NCBI GenBank assembly: GCA_028714615.1
Contig: JAQTMA010000104.1
Location: 1 to 14,138 of the forward strand
DNA length: 14,138 nucleotides
Reading direction: 5' to 3'
DNA from: Anaerolineaceae bacterium
GTDB taxonomy: Bacteria; Chloroflexota; Anaerolineae; Anaerolineales; Anaerolineaceae
Below, one piece after another: positions 448 to 10,483 of this stretch. The position numbers were made by a program, and so were the translations under genes. The notes below the pieces were generated by a model. That model did not search any database. It was given only the letters and a program-made list of their open reading frames with translations, and was not told where the DNA came from. How positions within the stretch are numbered: position 1 is the first letter of the stretch; the number at the start of each line of letters is the position of its first letter.

Positions 448-867
448 ATGAAAACGGCGACTTTTCCCGGTCGGTATGATAGCCTGGCCCGGATCAGTGA
501 GTTTGTCCTCAGAGCGGCCAAACAAGCCGGTCTGGATGAAAAAGCGGTATATGCCGTCCAGACGGCTGTCGACGAAGCGTGTTCCAACATTATCGAACAC
601 GCCTATGGGGGTGAAGGGCTTGGAGAAATTAACTGCTCCGTTCTCAACCAAGAGGACAGCCTGGCCGTCATTTTACGCGACCGGGGAAAATCTTTCGATC
701 CAAGCTCGATCCCAATCCCAAATGTCCATTCCAAGCTGTTTAGACGGAAAGAAGGGGGGTTGGGATTATTTTTCATACGGAATTACATGGACGAAGTGCG
801 TTTTGAATTCTCGTCCGAAAAGGGCAACCAGTTGACGATGATCAAGTACAAGGAGAAATCCACTTGA
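448..867 (+). CDS. anti-sigma factor serine kinase, GHKL ATPase (RsbW/SpoIIAB-like)
   Basis: A 139-residue HATPase_c protein of the RsbW/SpoIIAB type, which phosphorylates the neighbouring STAS protein and sequesters a target such as a sigma factor. The N box is VDEACSNIIEHAY with Glu43 and Asn47, the Mg-ATP ligands of GHKL enzymes. The G1 box is DRGKSFDP with Asp78 and Gly80, and the glycine-rich G2 segment is GGLGLFFI (103-110). Start choice: the reading frame is open further upstream, but that part overlaps the STAS gene, and the ATG at 448 gives the normal family N-terminus. No clear ribosome binding site precedes it, so translation probably depends on coupling to the STAS stop codon 16 bases before. 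Its stop codon overlaps the start of the phosphatase gene. No sigma factor gene is present in the window, so its target is unknown. Confidence 0.9.
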   Translation: MKTATFPGRYDSLARISEFVLRAAKQAGLDEKAVYAVQTAVDEACSNIIEHAYGGEGLGEINCSVLNQEDSLAVILRDRGKSFDPSSIPIPNVHSKLFRRKEGGLGLFFIRNYMDEVRFEFSSEKGNQLTMIKYKEKST

Positions 868-3800
868 AAAGTGGCCAGCCAGTTGAAACGGATGCACGCT
901 GGAGGGGGCTATTGGCTCTCGGCGAGCAGCTCCTGGCGAAGCCATCCATCCTAAACCAATATAATTTGATCATCCAACAAGTAGGCCAGCTTTTGCAAGC
1001 ACGAGTAGAGCTGGTCCTCTGTGAAGATTACTACCACCTCCCTGGCGAAGATCCCGTTCAAATTATTTCAACTCGAAAACCCAGCCGTCTGACACTAAAG
1101 GCGCTAACAAGTCGCCTGGTGCAAATTAGTCCCGTTGGAGATTCAAGCCCGGTCAACCTGGCCCTTCCCCTACAGACACAGAACACGCTGCTGGGCGTCA
1201 TCCAGGTGAAGCGATCCAACACCCAGCCCTTCTCTCCAGAGGATCGCCAATTTATCGAAGCAGCCACCCATTACCTGGCAGAACTACTCCTGATTACCCA
1301 CCAGGTAGCGATTAATAACTGGCGCCTCGAACAGCTTTCTCTGGTGCGCGAAGTTAGCGCTCAATTGGTGCATATCTCCGATCTGGATGAACTCGCGCAC
1401 AAGGTCTCTCACCAGATCCTGGATACCTTCCACTATTATTATGTGGCAATCCACACAGTAGAACCAGGGAAAGATCGTCTACGCTTCCGCGCGAATGCAT
1501 ATGCCCGAGGGAAATCGGACAGTCATCCGGCACACCCTCACAAAGTGGAAGTTCGGCTGAGCGAAGGGATCGTCGGCGCTGTTGCCCAAATGGGAACTGA
1601 AGTTTTAGCTGCCGATGTACAACATGAACCTCGCTACCGGTTTGTCGATGGGCTGCCCGAGACTCGCTCTGAGTTTGCGCTTCCGTTAAAAATCGAGGAC
1701 CACATTTTAGGCGTCTTGGATGTGCAGTCAGACCAGGTGAACGCCTTCCACGAGATCGACCAACTGGTATTACGAGCCTTAGCCGATAACATTGCTATCG
1801 CCATCGAGGGCACCCGTTTGTATAGCGACCTGCGCAAGCGCGTCGAGCAAATTACGACCGTAGCTGAGGTCAGCCGGTCGATCACCTCCATCCTGGATGT
1901 AGATGACGTCATTCGGGAGGTCGTTAATCTGTTGCATGAGCGCTTCGGTTACCCATACGTTCATGTCTTTACCGTGACCCCTGGAACGCGGAAAGTGCTC
2001 TATGCGGCCGGCAGTGGACCACGCAGCCAAGCATTTGCAGAATCTGGCCTGGCATACGATTTGGATGCTCCTTCTGGCATCATCCCTTGGGTAGCGCGCA
2101 CGGGGAAGACCCTAGTTGCGAACGACGTGTCGAAAGAAAAGCTGTACCGGCCAACCGAGTTACCCCCCCTGGATACCCGAGCCGAACTGGCGGTGCCGTT
2201 TCTCTATAATGGCGAAGTTCTGGGTCTGTTAGATATCCAAAGCGACCAGGTAAACATCTTCGATGAAGATGACCTGTATATATATGAAACCCTGGCCGCC
2301 AACGTTGCTATCGCTATGCGCAACGCGCGCTTATACAGATCGGAGAAGTGGCGTCGCCAGGTAGCCGAATCGCTGCGCGATGTAGCCGGTTTGCTTTCCG
2401 CAAACGTGGGGGTTGACCAGGTTCTTGAAGCAATTCTAACGGAACTAGAGCGTAACCTGCCTTGTGCAGTTGCCGCTATTTGGCTGGTCGAGAATGACCC
2501 AACGGATTCAGACGGTGAAGTTAGCCAGCGACTGCGCCTGGCAGCCATTCATGGGGATAATCCCGAAGAAGTGCAACGAGTGCGTGACGTTGTCCCCGAT
2601 GGGGATGACTTTCTGGCGCGAACGTTAACCAGTCTAGACCCGATCATCCGCTCACCGGATGATCCATTCGGCCCGCTCGGGGCGGCGCTTGGTTACGTCC
2701 AGGATTATTCATCCATTGCTGCGCCCCTACGCTCAGGAGATGAACCGCTCGGCTTGCTGGTGTTAGTTCACCCTACCCCCAGCCGGTATGGCGGCGAAGC
2801 CCAGGGGATGACCAAAGCTTTCGCCAGTTACGCGGCGGTTGCGCTCGAAAATACCCGGTTGTATGCCTCGGCCCAAGAACAAGCCTGGGTTTCCACGGTG
2901 ATGCTGCAGGTGGCTGAAGCAACTCAAACCTATGAAACACAAGATGAACTGCTCTCGGCTGTCGTTCGACTTGCACCCATGCTGGTGGGGGTGCGCGGAA
3001 CAGGCGTATTTCTATGGAACACTCTGGCAGAGAGCTTCCACCTGGCAGCATCCTACGGCTTGGAAGATACGCAAAAAGCCGATTTCGAAACGCGAACCAT
3101 CTTTCCGGGGGATGCGATAGCCTTCGATCAAGTGCGTTTTCAAAAAACTCCCGTTTTCGTACAGGATTGTCGCAAGGAGTTAGGATTTGGAGAAGCGGCA
3201 GCCTGTGAAACTGATTCTTACGATTTTGTGCTCTTTCCCCTTCTAACCCGGGGAGAATTCCTAGGCGCGTTCTTGGTCGAGCAACGCGGCCAGCCCGCGA
3301 TTGCAAATATCGAACAAAGGTTCGGCAGCGAACGCCTGGCTATTTTGCAAGGCATTGTGCAACAGACTGCGGTGGCAGTAGAAAACATCCGCCTTTTAGA
3401 AAACAAACAGGAAGAAGCTTATGTCACTGCCGTCTTGCTGCAGGTAGCACAGGCTGTCGTCAGCTCGAATGGTCTGGAAGATATCCTCGGTTCAATCGTG
3501 CATTTGATGCCGATCCTGGTCGGTATTGATTTCTGCGCCATCTTCCTGTGGGATGCAGAGCAGGAATCATATCACCCGGCGCAAGTGTATAGCGGTTCCT
3601 GGAACCTTGAAGAAGGCCTGTTTACCCGCGACACTGCCCTGGGAGAATATCCCTTATTGGATGCGGTACTGTCCAATCAGGCATTGGTCGTTTGCCCCTT
3701 AGGAAGCCCTGTTCCACCGCCCAACCAATGGCTAACCCTACCTCTCCCCGAGGGTGGCGAAGGGCAAGAAGCCTTCCTCAAGGGAAACCAAGACCTGCTG

Positions 3801-4721
3801 ATGGCTTTCCCCCTTTCCGTCAAAGGAGTGCACTTTGGAGTGCTGCTCGCCCAGGAAGCGGGCGCCGATCCAGCCTTCCGCGAACGAAGGATTGAAATCA
3901 TAAACGGCATCGCCCAACAAGCCTCCCTCGCTATTCAGAACGATCGGCTCAATCAGGAGATGGTGGAACGGGAGCGTCTTGAACGCGAATTCCAACTGGC
4001 TCGCGATATCCAACGTACCTTCCTGCCCACCCACACCCCAAAACCGAAAGGTTGGGACCTGGACGTGCGCTGGCGACCAGCGCGTGAAGTGGGAGGGGAC
4101 TTCTATGATGCATTTGAGTTGCCCGGTAACCATCTGGGATTGGTGATCGCAGACGTCTCTGACAAAGGTATGCCCGCGGCACTCTATATGACCGTCACTC
4201 GGACCCTCATCCGAGCAGCCGTTCAAGAGGAGGACTCCCCTGCGCGAGTACTAGAACGCGTAAATAACCTGCTATTGATGGATTCCCAATATGGGGCATA
4301 CGTGACTTGCGTGTATGCGATCGTTTCGTTGGATAGCGGTCAAATCACCTATGCGAATGCCGGCCACAATATTCCGCTGATCCTGCGAGCCAACTCGGGG
4401 GTGATTGAGCCATTAAAGAAGGGGAGCATGGCGATGGCTGTGCTTGAGGATAACCCACAGGTCGATCAAACGGTAATCTTGGAATCGGGTGACATTATCT
4501 TACTGTTCACAGACGGGGTTACGGAGGCTTTTTCTGCAGAGGGAGAACTTTACGGGGATCAGCGCTTAATGGCAGCCATCCATTGCTGCCCGTTGGATTC
4601 TGCCGGGGAATTACTCGAGCATCTTGACCAATCGCTCCTTGAATTCGTACACGGCGCGCCAGCCTCGGATGATATTACCTTGATTGCCTTGCGCCGGGAG
4701 GGGACGGCTGGCGCTTCCTAA
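864..4721 (+). CDS. multi-GAF sensor PP2C-type serine phosphatase (SpoIIE/RsbU family)
   Basis: A 1285-residue cytoplasmic protein with no evident membrane helices. The first ~1030 residues look like about six GAF-type units (roughly 1-150, 160-325, 330-495, 500-665, 675-845, 850-1030). Units 2 and 3 share endings of the form LGVLDVQSDQVNAF and LGLLDIQSDQVNIF; units 5 and 6 share openings LLQVAQA and PxLVG, which suggests tandem duplication. A charged helical linker (about 1025-1050) leads to a PP2C SpoIIE domain whose predicted metal-binding aspartates are Asp1079 (VGGDFYD), Asp1097 (IADVSDKG), Asp1217 (TDGVTEA) and Asp1269/Asp1270 (SDDIT). In the RsbU/SpoIIE family this domain dephosphorylates the STAS antagonist. 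The start is TTG at 864: AAGGAG (850-855) lies 8 bases before it and the codon overlaps the ATPase stop by four bases (TTGA), the signature of coupled translation. The GAF ligands cannot be read from sequence. Confidence 0.9.
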   Translation: MKSGQPVETDARWRGLLALGEQLLAKPSILNQYNLIIQQVGQLLQARVELVLCEDYYHLPGEDPVQIISTRKPSRLTLKALTSRLVQISPVGDSSPVNLALPLQTQNTLLGVIQVKRSNTQPFSPEDRQFIEAATHYLAELLLITHQVAINNWRLEQLSLVREVSAQLVHISDLDELAHKVSHQILDTFHYYYVAIHTVEPGKDRLRFRANAYARGKSDSHPAHPHKVEVRLSEGIVGAVAQMGTEVLAADVQHEPRYRFVDGLPETRSEFALPLKIEDHILGVLDVQSDQVNAFHEIDQLVLRALADNIAIAIEGTRLYSDLRKRVEQITTVAEVSRSITSILDVDDVIREVVNLLHERFGYPYVHVFTVTPGTRKVLYAAGSGPRSQAFAESGLAYDLDAPSGIIPWVARTGKTLVANDVSKEKLYRPTELPPLDTRAELAVPFLYNGEVLGLLDIQSDQVNIFDEDDLYIYETLAANVAIAMRNARLYRSEKWRRQVAESLRDVAGLLSANVGVDQVLEAILTELERNLPCAVAAIWLVENDPTDSDGEVSQRLRLAAIHGDNPEEVQRVRDVVPDGDDFLARTLTSLDPIIRSPDDPFGPLGAALGYVQDYSSIAAPLRSGDEPLGLLVLVHPTPSRYGGEAQGMTKAFASYAAVALENTRLYASAQEQAWVSTVMLQVAEATQTYETQDELLSAVVRLAPMLVGVRGTGVFLWNTLAESFHLAASYGLEDTQKADFETRTIFPGDAIAFDQVRFQKTPVFVQDCRKELGFGEAAACETDSYDFVLFPLLTRGEFLGAFLVEQRGQPAIANIEQRFGSERLAILQGIVQQTAVAVENIRLLENKQEEAYVTAVLLQVAQAVVSSNGLEDILGSIVHLMPILVGIDFCAIFLWDAEQESYHPAQVYSGSWNLEEGLFTRDTALGEYPLLDAVLSNQALVVCPLGSPVPPPNQWLTLPLPEGGEGQEAFLKGNQDLLMAFPLSVKGVHFGVLLAQEAGADPAFRERRIEIINGIAQQASLAIQNDRLNQEMVERERLEREFQLARDIQRTFLPTHTPKPKGWDLDVRWRPAREVGGDFYDAFELPGNHLGLVIADVSDKGMPAALYMTVTRTLIRAAVQEEDSPARVLERVNNLLLMDSQYGAYVTCVYAIVSLDSGQITYANAGHNIPLILRANSGVIEPLKKGSMAMAVLEDNPQVDQTVILESGDIILLFTDGVTEAFSAEGELYGDQRLMAAIHCCPLDSAGELLEHLDQSLLEFVHGAPASDDITLIALRREGTAGAS

Positions 4722-5496: not shown

Positions 5497-5796
5497 AACG
5501 AAGAGAGCACGCTGACCTGCAAGTGGTGCTACGCAAAGCGCGCACGACACATGGGGGTTATTCTACCGCGGGCTAGTGCGTGCTAAAGCAAGCACTACGA
5601 ACTTGCAGAATACTTTTTGTCCGCAAGGTATTTCACCCGATTAAGGGTGTTAATGAACTGATCACCGAATGAGTTACTCGGAATGACTAAATCACACGAG
5701 ACACCCCGCAGAGTCATACCTGCAAGAGGGACGAGTAGCACGACTGCCCTGCTAGGAGCGCTGGATTGGTTTTTACACTGATGCCATGCAGATAGA
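5497..5796. other. non-coding gap between the RAYT gene and the NRAMP-related transporter gene
   Basis: About 300 bases without a convincing gene. The left third holds the inverted REP-like pair described separately. A 16-base near-repeat, GGGACGAGTAGnACGA, occurs at 5486-5501 (overlapping the RAYT stop) and at 5728-5743, and ACCTGCAAG occurs at both 5515-5523 and 5719-5727. These are perhaps remnants of an insertion or duplication. No clear T-tailed terminator for the minus-strand operon was found. Confidence 0.5.
5517..5608. repeat. pair of inverted REP-like palindromes (BIME/REPIN-like) after the RAYT gene
   Basis: Two degenerate relatives of the upstream REP unit lie in the opposite orientation. 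The first is at 5532-5549: its reverse complement, TGTCGTGCGCGCTTTGCG, matches the upstream lead and stem closely. The second is a hairpin at 5574-5597, with arms TAGTGCGTGCT and AGCAAGCACTA (one mismatch), followed by CGAAC, the complement of the conserved lead GTTCG. The pair is enclosed by the perfect 8-base inverted repeat CTGCAAGT (5517-5524) and ACTTGCAG (5601-5608), so the 92-base unit can fold as one long imperfect hairpin. Confidence 0.65.
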
Positions 5797-7083
5797 CTAG
5801 AACTTGATAAAAGTAACCACTAGCGTACCGATGGAGGCAATGCTGATAATTACGGTGCAAACAATGGCGAAATACTTTTGGAAGCGGTTATTGGCAAATT
5901 CGCCCATCAGTTTCTTGTCGCTGGTGAGCTTGATCAGGTAATAGAAAACCAACGGCAGGCTCATGGCGTTGATAATCTGGGTGATGATCGCCAGTTTAAA
6001 GAGTGACAGCCCGGGGAACATGATGACGATCGTAGCCACAACCAGTTGGGCAATGAAGAGGACATAGAAAGTCTTGCTTTGCTGAAAGCTCATATCCAAG
6101 CTACCGGAAAGACCAAAAAATTCAGCGAAAGCATAGGCGGTACAGAGCGAAACGATGACCAAGCCCATAAAGCCGGCATCGAGAATGCCGATAGCAAACA
6201 ACGTTCCGGCAAGTTTTCCGGCGAAAGGTTGGATGGCAAGCGCCGCCTGTTCACCGGAAATCAAGGGGATTTTATGAGCGAATAGGGTGGCAGCAGTCGC
6301 CACGATCATAAAGAATGAAAAGAAGTCCGTCAGAAAGGCGCCCCAGTAGGTCTCCAACTGGGAGTAACTCACCCGGCCCTTCTCGATCTTCTTATCATAA
6401 GCAAAACTGCTTATGAAGAACTGCCCCCATGGGGTAATCGTCGTGCCCAGCACACCCATTCCAATGATCAGGTAGTTCCGTAAGTATTCCGGAGTAGCTT
6501 CAACCCCGTGTGGGTAAAAGATGTTGCTGACGGCTAACCCCCAATCTGGTTTTGCCTTCACGGCAGAGATAATGTAAGCCAGGTAGAACAAACACGCCAA
6601 CAGCATAACATTCTGGGTTAACTTATAATTCCCGCGGGTGATGAAAACGAAGGATATCAATACGATCACAATCACGAAGGGGATCGAGGGGATATTCAAC
6701 ATGGCACTGGTAATTTTTACGGCCGACAGCTCCGTAATGATAGTGCCCATATTGGCGATCAATAGACTGGTGAACATCAACACCGTCACCTTGACTCCGA
6801 ATTTCTCGCGAATCAGGTCGGCTAAACCACGCCCGGTGATGACCGTCAGGCGCATGCCCATTTCCTGGGTGATGCCCAGCAGGACGGTTATCAGCAACAA
6901 AGGGAATAAGATCGGGTAACCCAGGGTGGCGCCTGCCACGGAATAGGTCGCCACACCGCCGGCATCGTTATCCGCCATTGCCGTGATGGTGGCTGGACCG
7001 AAGACCGCCACAAATACCAAAATCCTTTTCCAGAAGCTTCCGATGAAGCTCCGCTTCTTCTTCCCGATGGATTTTTCTTCCAT
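5797..7083 (-). CDS. NRAMP-related divalent metal transporter, probable Mg2+ transporter of the NRMT/NrmT clade
   Basis: A 428-residue polytopic membrane protein with about 11 hydrophobic helices and the NRAMP (SLC11) fold. It aligns at helix 1 (GPATITAMADNDAGGVAT, from residue 29) and helix 6 (GTTITPWGQF, from 213). Canonical Mn/Fe NRAMPs carry DPGN in helix 1 and MPH in helix 6. Here these read DAGG (Asp40 to Gly43) and TPW (Thr217 to Trp219): the aspartate is kept, while the asparagine and the soft-metal methionine ligand are lost. Loss of that methionine is a hallmark of NRAMP-related Mg2+ transporters (NrmT of Clostridium acetobutylicum and the Eggerthella lenta NRMT belong to this group), so Mg2+ uptake across the cytoplasmic membrane is the preferred reading. 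The start ATG is 30 bases after the MgtE_N-CBS gene with only a weak ribosome binding site, consistent with an operon. Mn2+ transport remains possible but is less likely. Confidence 0.85.
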   Translation of the reverse strand: MEEKSIGKKKRSFIGSFWKRILVFVAVFGPATITAMADNDAGGVATYSVAGATLGYPILFPLLLITVLLGITQEMGMRLTVITGRGLADLIREKFGVKVTVLMFTSLLIANMGTIITELSAVKITSAMLNIPSIPFVIVIVLISFVFITRGNYKLTQNVMLLACLFYLAYIISAVKAKPDWGLAVSNIFYPHGVEATPEYLRNYLIIGMGVLGTTITPWGQFFISSFAYDKKIEKGRVSYSQLETYWGAFLTDFFSFFMIVATAATLFAHKIPLISGEQAALAIQPFAGKLAGTLFAIGILDAGFMGLVIVSLCTAYAFAEFFGLSGSLDMSFQQSKTFYVLFIAQLVVATIVIMFPGLSLFKLAIITQIINAMSLPLVFYYLIKLTSDKKLMGEFANNRFQKYFAIVCTVIISIASIGTLVVTFIKF

Positions 7084-7113
7084 GTTCGCTCTACGAGAGA
7101 TTCTGTTTCCGGA

Positions 7114-8370
7114 TTATCGGTAATAGCGCGGCAGGCGTTTCTTCCATGCCGTGGGAATGATTTTATCCAAGGCGTCGTCGGATGTGACGATCCCCATCAG
7201 ATGGTTATTCTCGTCGACCACCGGAATAGCAAGCAGATCGTATTTCGCAATCGACTGAGCGACATCATCCTGGCTATCCGAAGTCAGAACGCTCACCACC
7301 CGCTTGTGCATAAACGATTTCACAGGAGTCTCCGGATCAGCCATGATCAAATCGCTGAGGGAAAACACACCGATCAGGCAATTGTCTTCATCGGTAACGT
7401 ACACATAGAAGATGGTTTCAGCTTCGCTTGCCGTGCTGCGCAGAAGAGCAATGGCTTCCTGTGCCGTAATATTCTCTGGGATGGTGACGTACTCGGTGGT
7501 CATAAGACCGCCAGCCGAATCTTCCGGATAAGCTAGCAAGCGGCGCACATCCTCAGCGTTTTCGTCTTCCATCAGCTCCAAAAGATCCTCGCTGCGCTCT
7601 TTGCCGAGTTCCGCCAGCAAGTCGGCTGCTTCATCCGGAGCCATTTCCTCGAGCACATCTGCCACCCGTTCGTCTGGCATAGATTTCACCAGACTGGCCT
7701 GAAAATCAGGCTCAACCTCCTCCAGGGTATCTGCCAGTGTTTCAATATCGAAAGTCTCCAGCAAATCATCCGATTGGGCACGTGACAGGTCGCTAATGAT
7801 CTCGGCCAGATCGGCCGGGTGCAGTTCAGAAATTCGATCGCCAGGTACCTTGAGACGCATGCTGTCACTATCTGAAAGTAGCTCCACATCGTCCCAGGAA
7901 ATTTCGTTGCCTGATAAGGGTTTCTTAACGCGACCAGCAAGACTTTGGGCAAGGCGCGCCAACCCCATCCGACGAAGCAATCCCAAGCTGCCCACGTCTA
8001 CATTGGCGACAAAAAAAGAGCCATTAACCCGGGTTAGTTCCAGATCATTTACTCGCACAACCCGCACCCCATTGGTATCGATGATCTGCTTATCCAGCAC
8101 ATCGCGCGCCAGGTAAAGATCCGTCTCCGCAGGGTGGTAGCTTTCTATCTCTTGCCTCTTTAAATTGAGGGGGATGGCTGGGGCGATAAAAACCGCCAGT
8201 TGGTGAAAGGGGATTTCTAGATGCTGGTTAGCGTGCTTGACCTGGATAGCGACTACCATGGGATGTGGGATATCCCCCCGAATGCTGGCAATCACATCTT
8301 CGAGCTCGCCAATCCGCTCGCCGTCGATGTCGGTTACCGGTTTGCCGATTAATTCACTAAGGTAAGCCAT
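7114..8370 (-). CDS. soluble PRC-barrel, MgtE_N and CBS domain protein (probable Mg2+ sensor without the channel domain)
   Basis: A 418-residue protein with no membrane helices. The N-terminus is a PRC-barrel-like unit (about 3-80: LIGKPVTDIDGERIGELEDVI), followed by a second, looser PRC-like unit (about 88-140). Residues ~180-285 form the acidic helical-repeat MgtE_N domain, with repeats such as LADTLEEVEPD and VADVLEEMAPDEAADLL. The linker YPEDSAGGLMTTEYVTI leads into two CBS domains (~290-350 and ~352-408). In MgtE these parts sit in the cytosol, bind Mg2+ and gate the attached channel; the channel part is absent here. The protein ends soon after CBS2 at KRLPRYYR. Its position directly before an NRAMP-related Mg2+ transporter suggests that it senses Mg2+ and controls that transporter in trans, which is inference. 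The start is supported by GGAGG (8377-8381), 6 bases before the ATG. A terminator-like hairpin lies just upstream. Confidence 0.88.
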   Translation of the reverse strand: MAYLSELIGKPVTDIDGERIGELEDVIASIRGDIPHPMVVAIQVKHANQHLEIPFHQLAVFIAPAIPLNLKRQEIESYHPAETDLYLARDVLDKQIIDTNGVRVVRVNDLELTRVNGSFFVANVDVGSLGLLRRMGLARLAQSLAGRVKKPLSGNEISWDDVELLSDSDSMRLKVPGDRISELHPADLAEIISDLSRAQSDDLLETFDIETLADTLEEVEPDFQASLVKSMPDERVADVLEEMAPDEAADLLAELGKERSEDLLELMEDENAEDVRRLLAYPEDSAGGLMTTEYVTIPENITAQEAIALLRSTASEAETIFYVYVTDEDNCLIGVFSLSDLIMADPETPVKSFMHKRVVSVLTSDSQDDVAQSIAKYDLLAIPVVDENNHLMGIVTSDDALDKIIPTAWKKRLPRYYR

Positions 8371-8387
8371 CGGGCACCTCCGGGCAG

Positions 8388-8414
8388 AAAAACGCCCCGC
8401 GGCGAACGGGGCAT
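8388..8414 (-). terminator. intrinsic terminator or attenuator just ahead of the MgtE_N-CBS gene
   Basis: On the minus strand GCCCCG (8412-8407) pairs with CGGGGC (8399-8394) around a seven-base loop, extended by an A-T and a T-G pair, and is followed almost at once by five T (8392-8388). It lies about 90 bases after the stop of the small membrane protein gene and only about 17 bases before the next start codon; the ribosome binding site follows the T run within a few bases. It may end transcripts of the upstream gene or work as a leader attenuator. No M-box consensus could be seen in the short leader. Confidence 0.65.
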
Positions 8415-8446
8415 ATCAATTGTCAGGGATAAAGTCAAACAGTGTA

Positions 8447-8468
8447 AACCGGATTAATCGCACCGGTT
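8447..8468. promoter_or_regulatory. inverted repeat in the gap before the MgtE_N-CBS gene
   Basis: AACCGG (8447-8452) and CCGGTT (8463-8468) form a perfect six-base inverted repeat with a ten-base spacer, two turns from end to end. It could be an operator for a dimeric regulator or a weak RNA stem in the leader. On the minus strand TTGACT followed after 17 bases by TATGCC lies between it and the terminator hairpin, a poor candidate for an internal promoter. The call rests on symmetry alone. Confidence 0.3.
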
Positions 8469-8503
8469 CATGTCAATATCGAAACGCTTTCACTCCGGCT
8501 GGT

Positions 8504-8914
8504 TCAGCCTTCGGTGACATCTCGGAGTACAACCATGCGCACATCGGGAAGCTCGCTATACCACAATAGGAAAGCGGAAAGGGTCATAGCGATGACCGTA
8601 AGTACCAGATAGGGTATGTTCGCGACCTGGACACCATTGTCATTCATGGTAGCGTGGGGCATGATCATCATCAGCCGGCTGATCACGTTAATCCCCTGGG
8701 AGAAAGATACCAAATACCAGGGCCACAGCACGTCGCGTTGCTGGAAAATCAACTCCACATCGGCGATCAGCACCAGGATTGCCAAGAGAACCGGCAGCCA
8801 CCATTCTTGTGAATCAGGAGAGAAAGAGGCTGAAGGAAACAGGATGAGCGGGATAAACTGCAGGACCAGAATAACAAAAACCACAGGTTTACGAGTGATG
8901 AACTTGCGTACCAT
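8504..8914 (-). CDS. small four-helix membrane protein of unknown function
   Basis: I do not recognise a family. The 136-residue protein has a basic start (MVRKFITRK) and four hydrophobic stretches at about 11-27, 38-57, 64-86 and 101-119, then a short soluble tail. Acidic and polar residues lie in or near the membrane part (DVELIFQQRD around 53-62). AGGAGG (8925-8930) lies 10 bases before the ATG, and a consensus minus-strand promoter is about 65 bases upstream, so this is the first gene of the transcript that continues, at least in part, into the MgtE_N-CBS and NRAMP-related genes. Context makes it a candidate accessory membrane subunit of the Mg2+ system, but nothing in the sequence proves that. 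Its frame is intact and its hydrophobic pattern is regular. Confidence 0.75.
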   Translation of the reverse strand: MVRKFITRKPVVFVILVLQFIPLILFPSASFSPDSQEWWLPVLLAILVLIADVELIFQQRDVLWPWYLVSFSQGINVISRLMMIMPHATMNDNGVQVANIPYLVLTVIAMTLSAFLLWYSELPDVRMVVLRDVTEG

Positions 8915-8977
8915 GGTCCGCGTGCCTCCTGGGAGAATGTGTAATCCGAAATTATCGATAAACTAAATGATCAAATG

Positions 8978-9006
8978 ATTATAAAGAAATCTCATACGGC
9001 TGTCAA
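8978..9006 (-). promoter_or_regulatory. consensus sigma70-type promoter for the minus-strand operon
   Basis: On the minus strand TTGACA (9006-9001) is followed after exactly 17 bases by TATAAT (8983-8978), a full match to the housekeeping consensus. Transcription would start near 8971, leaving a leader of about 57 bases before the small membrane protein gene. Confidence 0.85.
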
Positions 9007-9020
9007 GAAACAAAAGAATG

Positions 9021-9058
9021 AAAATCGATCAAGAAAGGAACTTGACATAGTCGATTTT
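9021..9058. promoter_or_regulatory. nested inverted repeat between the divergent promoters, possible operator
   Basis: AAAATCGA (9021-9028) and TCGATTTT (9051-9058) are perfect inverted arms. Inside them TCAAG (9029-9033) and CTTGA (9041-9045) form a second inverted pair. The right part covers the -35 box (9042-9047) of the rightward promoter, a location that suits repressor binding. No regulator gene is in the window. Confidence 0.4.
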
Positions 9059-9070
9059 TTTATGTATAGT
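9042..9070 (+). promoter_or_regulatory. near-consensus sigma70-type promoter for the Liv transporter operon
   Basis: TTGACA (9042-9047), a 17-base spacer and TATAGT (9065-9070) differ from the consensus at one position. Transcription would begin near 9077, about 258 bases before the binding-protein gene, so the transcript has an unusually long leader. Confidence 0.85.
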
Positions 9071-9076
9071 ATCTGG

Positions 9077-9334
9077 AACAGAATCGCTACCCAAATTCGT
9101 AACTATTATCCACGACATCAAGAACAGGAACTGAATACAGGAGCAATCATCCCTTATTTTAGGTGTAGGTATTTTTCGGAAACACCTGCTTGTTGGAAAA
9201 AGGATTACAAGGAGGGAGGTGGTATAGCCCACAGGATTCGGATTTCTACCTGGATGACACCCCACAGATTATCATCAAGTGAGGTTATGAATCCATCAAT
9301 CGGTTAAGCTCTACACAATCCAAGGAGGAGATCT
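9077..9334 (+). promoter_or_regulatory. long 5' leader of the Liv operon with alternative stems
   Basis: The leader contains no convincing gene. ACACCT (9182-9187) can pair either with AGGTGT (9161-9166) or, through CACCT, with AGGTG (9217-9221); in the second fold CTTGT (9189-9193) also pairs with ACAAG (9207-9211). The two folds exclude each other. CCCACAG occurs twice (9228-9234, 9261-9267). A six-codon frame MNPSIG at 9287-9307 ends 27 bases before the binding-protein ATG. No T-box or other named riboswitch consensus was recognised. The binding-protein ribosome binding site AAGGAGGAG lies at 9321-9329. Confidence 0.35.
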
Positions 9335-10483
9335 ATGCGTACGTTTAAAGTATTCAGTATCCTGATGGTTGTTGCCTTGCTCTTCACGGCATGCACCCCA
9401 GGGGCAAAGACGGTTAAGATCGCAATTTTAGCACCCCTGTCTGGCTCTCAGCCTACCTTCGGCGCTATGACCCGGGATGGCGCTTTACTGGCTATCGACC
9501 AGTGGAATGCCAAGGGTGGTGTGTTAGGTGCGAAGATCGTCGGCCAGGTGGAAGACAGCCAATGCTCGGCTGATCCGGCCGTAGCGGCTGCCAACAAGGT
9601 CATCAGCCAGGACAAGATCCACTACATCGTCGGCGAAGTCTGCTCCAGCGCTTCGATCCCTGTCTCCGATATCGCCAACGCTGCTAAAGTCGTGCAGATC
9701 AGCCCGACCTCCACAAACGTCAACCTGACTGTGGACAAGAACGGTAAAGTCAAGGATTACATTTTCCGAGCTTGCTTCATCGATCCCTTCCAGGGCAAGG
9801 TAGGCGCTAAATTCGCTTTTGAAAACTTGAAAGCGAAAACCGCCTTTGTCATGCTCGACCAGGGCAACGACTACGTCAAGGGCCTGGCGGAAGCATTTGA
9901 AGCTTCCTTCAAAGAGTTGGGCGGAAAAGTCGTCGGTAAAGAAAGCTACACCAAGGGTGATACCGATTTCTCCACCATCCTCTCCAAGGTATCCGACACC
10001 AAGCCGGACGTGATTTACCTGCCTGATTACTATCAAACAGTCAATCTGGTCACGAAACAGGCCAAGGAAAAGGGCATCACTGCTCCATTCATGGGCGGCG
10101 ATGGCTGGGACTCGTCAGACCTGGATAAGGTAGCGGCTGCAGGTGGATACTTCACCAACCACTACTCCCCTGAGGACCAACGACCAGAAGTCCAAACCTT
10201 CTTGAAGGATTTCGGGGCGAAATACAAGGACGATAAGGGCAATCCAAAAATTCCGGACGCTCTAGCTGCCCTGGCTTATGACGCCACCAACCTGCTGATC
10301 CAGGCTATCTCCAACGCCGGCGTCGACGATGCCACCAAAGTCCGTGATGCAATGATCGGTATCAATTTCAAAGCGGTATCTGGCACGATTACCTTTGACG
10401 CTGACCACAACCCGATCAAATCTGCCACGATTTTGGCTGTGACACCTGACAAGATCAAGTTCGAGGCAGTTGTCAATCCGTAA
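9335..10483 (+). CDS. livK: branched-chain amino acid type ABC transporter substrate-binding lipoprotein (LivK-like)
   Basis: A 382-residue type 1 periplasmic-binding-fold protein (Peripla_BP_6/LivK family) that captures the substrate outside the membrane and delivers it to the LivHM permease. The N-terminus is a lipoprotein signal: basic start MRTFK, hydrophobic core, and lipobox LFTAC with the lipidated cysteine at residue 20. The mature part opens with KIAILAPLSGSQPTFGAMTRDGALLAI, which is typical of the family, and contains the hinge-region motif PDVIYLPDYY. AAGGAGGAG (9321-9329) is 5 bases before the ATG. Genes for two permeases and two ATPases follow in order, so this is the binding protein of a complete HAAT-type system. 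The substrate cannot be decided from sequence: leucine, isoleucine and valine are the default, but related systems carry other amino acids, amides or urea. Hairpins separate it from livH, which suits higher expression of this gene than of the permeases. Confidence 0.92.
   Translation: MRTFKVFSILMVVALLFTACTPGAKTVKIAILAPLSGSQPTFGAMTRDGALLAIDQWNAKGGVLGAKIVGQVEDSQCSADPAVAAANKVISQDKIHYIVGEVCSSASIPVSDIANAAKVVQISPTSTNVNLTVDKNGKVKDYIFRACFIDPFQGKVGAKFAFENLKAKTAFVMLDQGNDYVKGLAEAFEASFKELGGKVVGKESYTKGDTDFSTILSKVSDTKPDVIYLPDYYQTVNLVTKQAKEKGITAPFMGGDGWDSSDLDKVAAAGGYFTNHYSPEDQRPEVQTFLKDFGAKYKDDKGNPKIPDALAALAYDATNLLIQAISNAGVDDATKVRDAMIGINFKAVSGTITFDADHNPIKSATILAVTPDKIKFEAVVNP

Follow-up and report, generated by a model that had tools for sequence, protein, structure and literature searches.

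In the window analysed here, a 14,138-nucleotide stretch of an Anaerolineaceae bacterium (Chloroflexota; contig JAQTMA010000104.1), the gene for a carrier of the Nramp-related Mg2+ transporter (NRMT) type follows directly downstream of a gene for a soluble, channel-less relative of the Mg2+ channel MgtE, hereafter the sensor. The pair is a further case of a known and well-conserved kind of gene pair that is common in Chloroflexota, here with a sensor that bears a PRC domain. Its leading explanation, which we consider probable, is a two-gene Mg2+ uptake unit in which the sensor would gate the carrier in trans. The two open reading frames (ORFs) are the following:

5797-7083, minus strand: NRMT-type Nramp transporter, 428 amino acids (ORF list, Pfam, solved-structure match, tree)
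7114-8370, minus strand: channel-less, soluble PRC + MgtE_N + CBS-CBS sensor, 418 amino acids (ORF list, Pfam, NCBIfam, structure model)

The spacer between the sensor gene and the transporter gene measures 30 bases (7084-7113), the distance given in an initial annotation of this DNA, which had also described the upstream product as soluble, with PRC + MgtE_N + CBS-CBS and lacking the membrane domain of MgtE; the positions of both ORFs and the Pfam matches bear out these two statements. Within the sensor, these parts were recognized, all on the minus strand:

8203-8367: PRC-barrel domain, residues 2-56 (Pfam, 42.2 bits)
7876-8121: second PRC-like beta block, approximately residues 84-165 (16.4 bits, under the Pfam cut-off of 21.2)
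7519-7824: MgtE_N domain, residues 183-284 (Pfam, 92 bits)
7159-7506: CBS pair, approximately residues 289-404 (Pfam, two stretches, 75 bits)
7117-7158: basic aromatic C-terminal tail IPTAWKKRLPRYYR, residues 405-418, at the position of the MgtE plug helix

Kinship of the soluble partner with MgtE is supported by the MgtE_N and CBS matches and by the fold. The NCBIfam model TIGR00400 (mgtE) scored 205.3 bits on the sensor, under its cut-off of 232.75, and a Pfam scan found no MgtE membrane domain (PF01769) in it, so that the protein is not an MgtE channel. A structure model (mean predicted local distance difference test, pLDDT, 83.6; predicted template modelling score, pTM, 0.53) had MgtE structures as its best matches and contained extra beta strands at the second PRC-like block, and its N-CBS part superimposed on the Mg2+-bound MgtE cytosolic domain 2yvy with a template modelling score of 0.87 by target length and a root mean square deviation of 1.7. 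When the Mg2+ ligands of MgtE, as given in the consulted parts of PMC5882242, were transferred by alignment, sensor D214 corresponded to E59 (Mg7), D246 to D91 (Mg4), D250 to D95 (Mg6), D378 to D226 (Mg5), D399 to D247 (Mg4) and D402 to D250 (Mg5), and the window sensor is predicted from its sequence to bind Mg2+. Among 79 channel-less sensors an acidic residue stands at the position of E59 in 75 of 78, of D91 in 73 of 78, of D95 in 77 of 78 and of D247 in 76 of 79; in this alignment the Mg4, Mg6 and Mg7 positions are kept and Mg5 is frequently lost. The plug helix is absent from the sensor, in which its first turn (D399, D402) is retained and then followed by the basic tail. In Anaerolineae sensors the tail reads PTAWKKRLPRxYR where MgtE enters the plug helix (PTAWKKRLP being invariant in the window and 11 relatives), other Chloroflexota sensors carry looser versions of it, and Patescibacteria sensors end without a tail. 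MgtE_N and CBS are conserved into Patescibacteria, with PRC above the cut-off in locus L019 and below it in L027. The sensor is like the cytosolic domain of MgtE (2yvy, 2zy9) in its N domain, CBS pair, most Mg2+-ligand positions and fold, and unlike MgtE in lacking a membrane domain, in continuing with a basic tail after the first turn of the plug helix and in having PRC added.

The transporter belongs to the Nramp family (PF01566, 241 bits in Pfam) and stayed below the cut-offs of three NCBIfam Nramp models (119.6 of 430, 62.7 of 272.5 and 45.2 of 50). Its top solved match was 7qia with 208 bits; the runner-up had 91, and each of the remaining 19 distinct sequences stayed below 60. We took 7qia to be EleNRMT because its D55, T224, E133 and Q379 fall at the positions given in the accessible parts of PMC8806188; they align with D40, T214, E118 and Q369 of the transporter, in which G43 occupies the Asn-to-Gly position. 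Across the window and 13 relatives, D40, T214 and Q369 never vary and E118 hardly does. The metal-site motifs, read from the alignment of transmembrane helices 1 and 6 (TM1, TM6), lie at:

6955-6966, minus strand: TM1 motif D40-A41-G42-G43 (DxxG), in DNDAGGVATYS
6427-6444, minus strand: TM6 motif T214-T-I-T217-P-W219 (TxxT), in GTTITPWGQFF

By the NRMT rule, as stated in the same source, DxxG in TM1 and TxxA/T in TM6 replace DxxN and A/CxxM, and the DxxG-TxxT of the transporter follows it; in TPWGQFFI, moreover, W and I replace both canonical Nramp TM6b histidines. The initial annotation had correctly named the changes from DPGN to DAGG and from MPH to TPW, and the NRMT identity of the transporter is supported by the 7qia match, the motifs and a tree. 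This was a quick tree of 104 rows with two canonical Nramp rows as outgroup, made without the two L067 rows and the duplicate loci L028-L036. In it EleNRMT and the window transporter share a 97-row group with a Shimodaira-Hasegawa-like approximate likelihood ratio test value of 92 (below 95), in which EleNRMT has no firm position, and the window transporter belongs to a 28-row clade, drawn from Anaerolineae and Patescibacteria, whose branch is long (1.36 changes per column). The two carriers are alike in that the metal-site D, G, T, E and Q align and both TM6 histidine positions are replaced, and unlike in that EleNRMT has TxxA and the window transporter TxxT, the clade of the latter standing on its long branch.

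In a scan of genome contigs the sensor gene was adjacent to the transporter gene in 24 of 27 related loci (in L018 downstream and on the other strand), which is more than chance; of the three loci without an adjacent sensor, L010 has the carrier at the contig edge, and 0.6 kb and 1.65 kb of upstream sequence were available in L015 and L014. Among the matches listed for 151 Chloroflexota genomes, 51 of 103 transporter matches had a sensor no more than 3 kb away, the paired share being 8/10 at bit scores of at least 300, 28/46 at 240-300, 5/8 at 200-240, 10/38 at 164-200 and 0/1 below. In 43 of these 51 pairs the sensor gene precedes the transporter gene in the same orientation, and the other eight differ in order or strand; that adjacency persists through such differences argues for selection rather than a frozen gene order. 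For this 3-kb count the rows were pruned by hand, which removed transporter matches of less than 149 bits and many sensor rows (ordinary MgtE-type matches lacking PRC and second pieces of split matches), and sensors next to split Nramp rows in three genomes (G116, G076, G132) went uncounted. At the level of whole genomes, 56 had both genes, 2 only the sensor, 14 only the transporter and 79 neither (Fisher p 2e-25, kinship ignored). In other words, an NRMT-like gene was present in 56/58 genomes with a PRC-bearing sensor versus 14/93 without, in hand-coded sets that ignore kinship and treat sensors in two pieces inconsistently (G055, G064, G113, G137 and G153 dropped, G073 kept). Conserved genomic co-occurrence, set beforehand as a test of the pairing, was accordingly found in both the loci and the genomes.

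On the tree, 73 rows were paired and 23 unpaired, with five left undecided, and the pairing label changed 11 times versus 20.8 times when shuffled (0/500 shuffles as low); sensor losses or gains have therefore been repeated. Among decided rows with DAxG in TM1, the paired share was 36/41 for TPW in TM6, 22/25 for TPY, 9/10 for APW and 2/10 for SPY, and among those with a DP-type TM1 it was 1/5; pairing by metal-site type is clustered by descent. The SPY (TxxS) NRMT-like carriers, for example those of L086, L087, L088, L093, L095 and L097, mostly have no neighbouring sensor and may mark a different ion or mode of control, or descent alone. At L025 (2493-6269) the sensor and one transporter copy are each spread over two frames, and an intact transporter copy follows them.

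As to the ion transported, 7 of 14 near relatives carry an M-box riboswitch ahead of the pair, in the same orientation (6/12 in a first set, then L016 with and L025 without one). It occurs in 2 of 20 other Chloroflexota loci, in both of which the carrier gene comes first, and is rare in the class (6/120 genomes under strict filters). The M-boxes next to a pair are:

L001, 3054-3253
L002, 3111-3279
L003, 3184-3353
L004, 2164-2335
L005, 2247-2417
L008, 2739-2913
L016, 3219-3394
L048, 1213-1382, carrier gene first
L082, 811-968, carrier gene first

In the genomes of 13 relatives, all drafts in which absences are soft, the MgtE membrane domain was matched in two and no MgtE channel in the other 11, CorA was matched in nine, and a second Nramp of more than 420 bits, presumed to be of the canonical type, was likewise matched in nine. 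The M-box counts and the second Nramp support Mg2+, claimed in the initial annotation, as the likely ion, and Mg2+ would be the substrate of the window transporter.

The same kind of pair was first described by Shin et al. 2014 (PMC4072509), in whose accessible text most NrmT genes have a gene for a homologue of the MgtE N-terminal cytoplasmic domain in their local context, many are under M-box control, and the MgtE-like fragment is speculated to act in cytoplasmic feedback regulation or as a metal chaperone. Like the window, the pairs described there (the Ca_c0685 operon and Acp2976-Acp2977) place an Nramp-related carrier beside a channel-less MgtE cytoplasmic-domain gene; unlike the single sensor gene of the window, the C. 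acetobutylicum fragment is split into two genes, and an M-box stands before many of those NrmT genes, as it does in half of our near relatives, and not in the window. The words PRC, CBS and Chloroflexi do not occur in the main text of PMC4072509 (figure S5 aside). The initial annotation saw the point of interest in the pairing itself: the pairing is real and conserved, and its interest is weakened in that both the pairing and the same kind of regulation are in PMC4072509. New here are the Chloroflexota adjacency counts, the genome co-occurrence, the M-box in near relatives, the lack of an MgtE channel match in 11 of 13 relatives' draft genomes, the ligand retention, the basic tail and a group of PRC-MgtE channels. 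The latter are proteins with PRC, MgtE_N, CBS and the MgtE membrane domain (L113, L039 and P0251), which share the PRC + MgtE_N + CBS head with the sensor and differ from it in retaining the plug region and the membrane domain. At L039 (1180-4237) a gene for such a full channel immediately precedes an NRMT gene, a place taken in relatives by the channel-less sensor alone, and these channels make descent of the free sensor from a PRC-MgtE channel plausible.

In the explanation favoured here, the NRMT carrier would import Mg2+ uncoupled from H+, like EleNRMT, its soluble partner would be the MgtE cytoplasmic sensor detached from the channel and extended by PRC barrels at the N-terminus and a basic tail at the C-terminus, and this sensor would gate the carrier in trans, as the initial annotation had supposed, with the PRC barrels as a possible docking module; we infer both the physical contact between the two proteins and the direction of the sensor's effect. 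More tentatively, PRC-MgtE_N-CBS might be an exchangeable Mg2+ gate that acts in cis on MgtE and, by way of a carrier-contacting basic tail, in trans on a LeuT-fold carrier, with many Anaerolineae layering M-box, acidic leader ORF and sensor. Were gating in trans to hold, a sensor domain would have passed from one Mg2+ transport fold to another, unrelated one in the form of an independent subunit, and the question of 2014 about the role of the MgtE-like fragment would become testable with well-defined pairs, for which the L039 channel upstream of an NRMT gene and the sensors whose basic tail replaces the plug helix offer concrete comparisons.

Several results weigh against this explanation. 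The carriers of L014 and L015 have no sensor in the upstream sequence covered (1.65 and 0.6 kb), 52 of the 103 Chloroflexota transporter matches listed had none within 3 kb, and unlinked sensors occur at L107-L112, L114 and L115, two of them in a genome (G006) with no Nramp match among the matches listed. A search with the joined window proteins, in which 7993 candidates were scored and 200 passed, gave no genuine sensor-Nramp fusion among the best 120 of 200, the two mixed matches not being accepted. At the Mg5 ligands, channel-less sensors have an acidic residue at D226 in only 19/79 and at D250 in 66/77 cases, and the site residues of the window sensor are kept in 6/6 cases versus 31/46 for its other acidic residues, a difference that is not significant (p 0.16). 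The M-box was absent from 11 other loci, mostly of Patescibacteria, and neither it nor another leader RNA of a known family was found in the window at gathering level or, in 8350-9340, at E up to 1. According to the consulted parts of PMC4072509, whose one co-expression test used a pair from another phylum, Mg2+ had to be at low millimolar levels for the Acidobacterium capsulatum carrier to rescue growth, the co-expressed partner did not improve this rescue, the same carrier fully rescued an Mn2+ transport defect, and the C. acetobutylicum carriers functioned in assays without the partner; EleNRMT transports Mn2+ as well as Mg2+ (PMC8806188, in the parts accessible). A later test of the MgtE-like partner was not found in the open-access literature, of which coverage was partial.

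The Mn2+ rescue by the A. capsulatum carrier, the dual specificity of EleNRMT and the long branch that sets off the 28-row clade of the window carrier would all fit a carrier that serves mainly Mn2+ or another transition metal, with a sensor reading that ion. We think this rather unlikely in view of the M-boxes in the leaders of near relatives, the retained NRMT metal-site residues and the second Nramp, presumably an Mn2+ importer, in nine of 13 relatives. The unlinked sensors, among them those of G006, would fit a sensor that does not gate the carrier directly, being merely co-expressed with it while reporting Mg2+ or, through its CBS pair, ATP elsewhere, or buffering or delivering metal. PRC barrels are general docking modules, and the CBS domain of MgtE binds ATP (5x9g and 5x9h are among the fold matches of the sensor). 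Metal chaperone activity was also named by Shin et al. in the part of PMC4072509 seen. The presence of an NRMT-like gene in nearly all genomes with a sensor speaks against such an indirect role, as do the retained Mg4, Mg6 and Mg7 positions, which are most simply those of a gate, and we judge it unlikely. Finally, the full PRC-MgtE channels with the same head architecture would allow the partner to be a functionless relic of a truncated MgtE gene kept by linkage, which is highly improbable for a protein with intact frames and a conserved tail across Anaerolineae, with MgtE_N and CBS conserved into Patescibacteria and with an adjacency that survives changes of gene order.

Some of the proteins and loci set aside above have features of their own. 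The mixed match P0246 has an Arg-rich, apparently out-of-frame middle and resembles two adjacent genes run together by a double frameshift, and P0322, with the last CBS part only, seems to be a read-through of an intergenic stretch; P0249 consists of two Nramp copies, P0248 of two Nramp stretches and P0278 of Nramp and an epimerase. The two unlinked sensors of G006 (L109, 1743-3143; L110, 1994-3394) are similar to each other, and an ORF for an ATP-binding cassette permease (BPD_transp_1) lies beside that of L109. In 18 scanned neighbour ORFs of the eight loci with unlinked sensors, a part of all their neighbours, no Nramp, MgtE or CorA Pfam match was found.

The 139-nucleotide leader of the sensor gene in the window folds no better than shuffled sequences (z -0.77, 40/200 as good). 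A hairpin lies at:

8392-8414, minus strand: terminator-like, with a T-run, immediately before the ribosome-binding site of the sensor gene

This hairpin probably terminates the upstream gene and could be an attenuator; the count of terminator-like sites in 5500-9400 (three versus a shuffle mean of 4.0) is not above chance. In near relatives a short ORF of 32-67 amino acids, with the start M-[DN]-[ATS]-D and a strong Shine-Dalgarno sequence, lies 206-329 bases ahead of the sensor gene. Among 14 leaders it was present in 10 of the 13 relatives (L001, L002, L003, L004, L005, L006, L008, L011, L012 and L016) and not in the window, L007, L009 or L026, and in seven loci it lies between the M-box and the sensor gene. 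Its conservation fades after about six codons, the C-terminus not being conserved. The start motif appeared in 0/300 mononucleotide shuffles of the 14 leaders, a control that excludes base composition only, for a pattern derived from the same related leaders. The short ORF is a possible Mg2+-responsive leader peptide, similar to the acidic ones that precede Mg2+ transporter genes in enterobacteria. For mycobacteria, an M-box followed by a small ORF is on record (PMC12810186, as far as accessible). As a general companion of the M-box the acidic ORF was rejected: a loose pattern gave 32 sites in 27/120 genomes of the class and 11 sites in a reversed control, the sites in G001 and G033 preceding the pair, and the other M-boxes of the class (L116-L120 and L122) had neither an acidic ORF nor a sensor or NRMT match in the flanks retrieved.

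The gene upstream of the hairpin encodes a hydrophobic protein:

8504-8914, minus strand: hydrophobic protein, 136 amino acids, no Pfam or NCBIfam match

It has homologues in 27/120 genomes of the class and no tblastn match in the loci compared, and was rejected as a third operon member, the homologue in the sister genome G001 being on contig C319 and the pair on C409. Between this gene and a solute-binding protein gene at 9335 are two divergent, strong promoter-like sites (8978-9006, minus strand; 9042-9070, plus strand) with 12/12 and 11/12 consensus bases and 17-base spacers. On the other side of the pair, a gene for a repetitive extragenic palindrome (REP)-associated tyrosine transposase (NF047646; 4786-5496, plus strand) is convergent with the transporter gene, and 864-4721 (plus strand) encodes a 1285-amino-acid protein in which Pfam places several GAF domains along with a SpoIIE phosphatase domain, preceded by small ORFs that appear to encode a STAS protein and an anti-sigma kinase.

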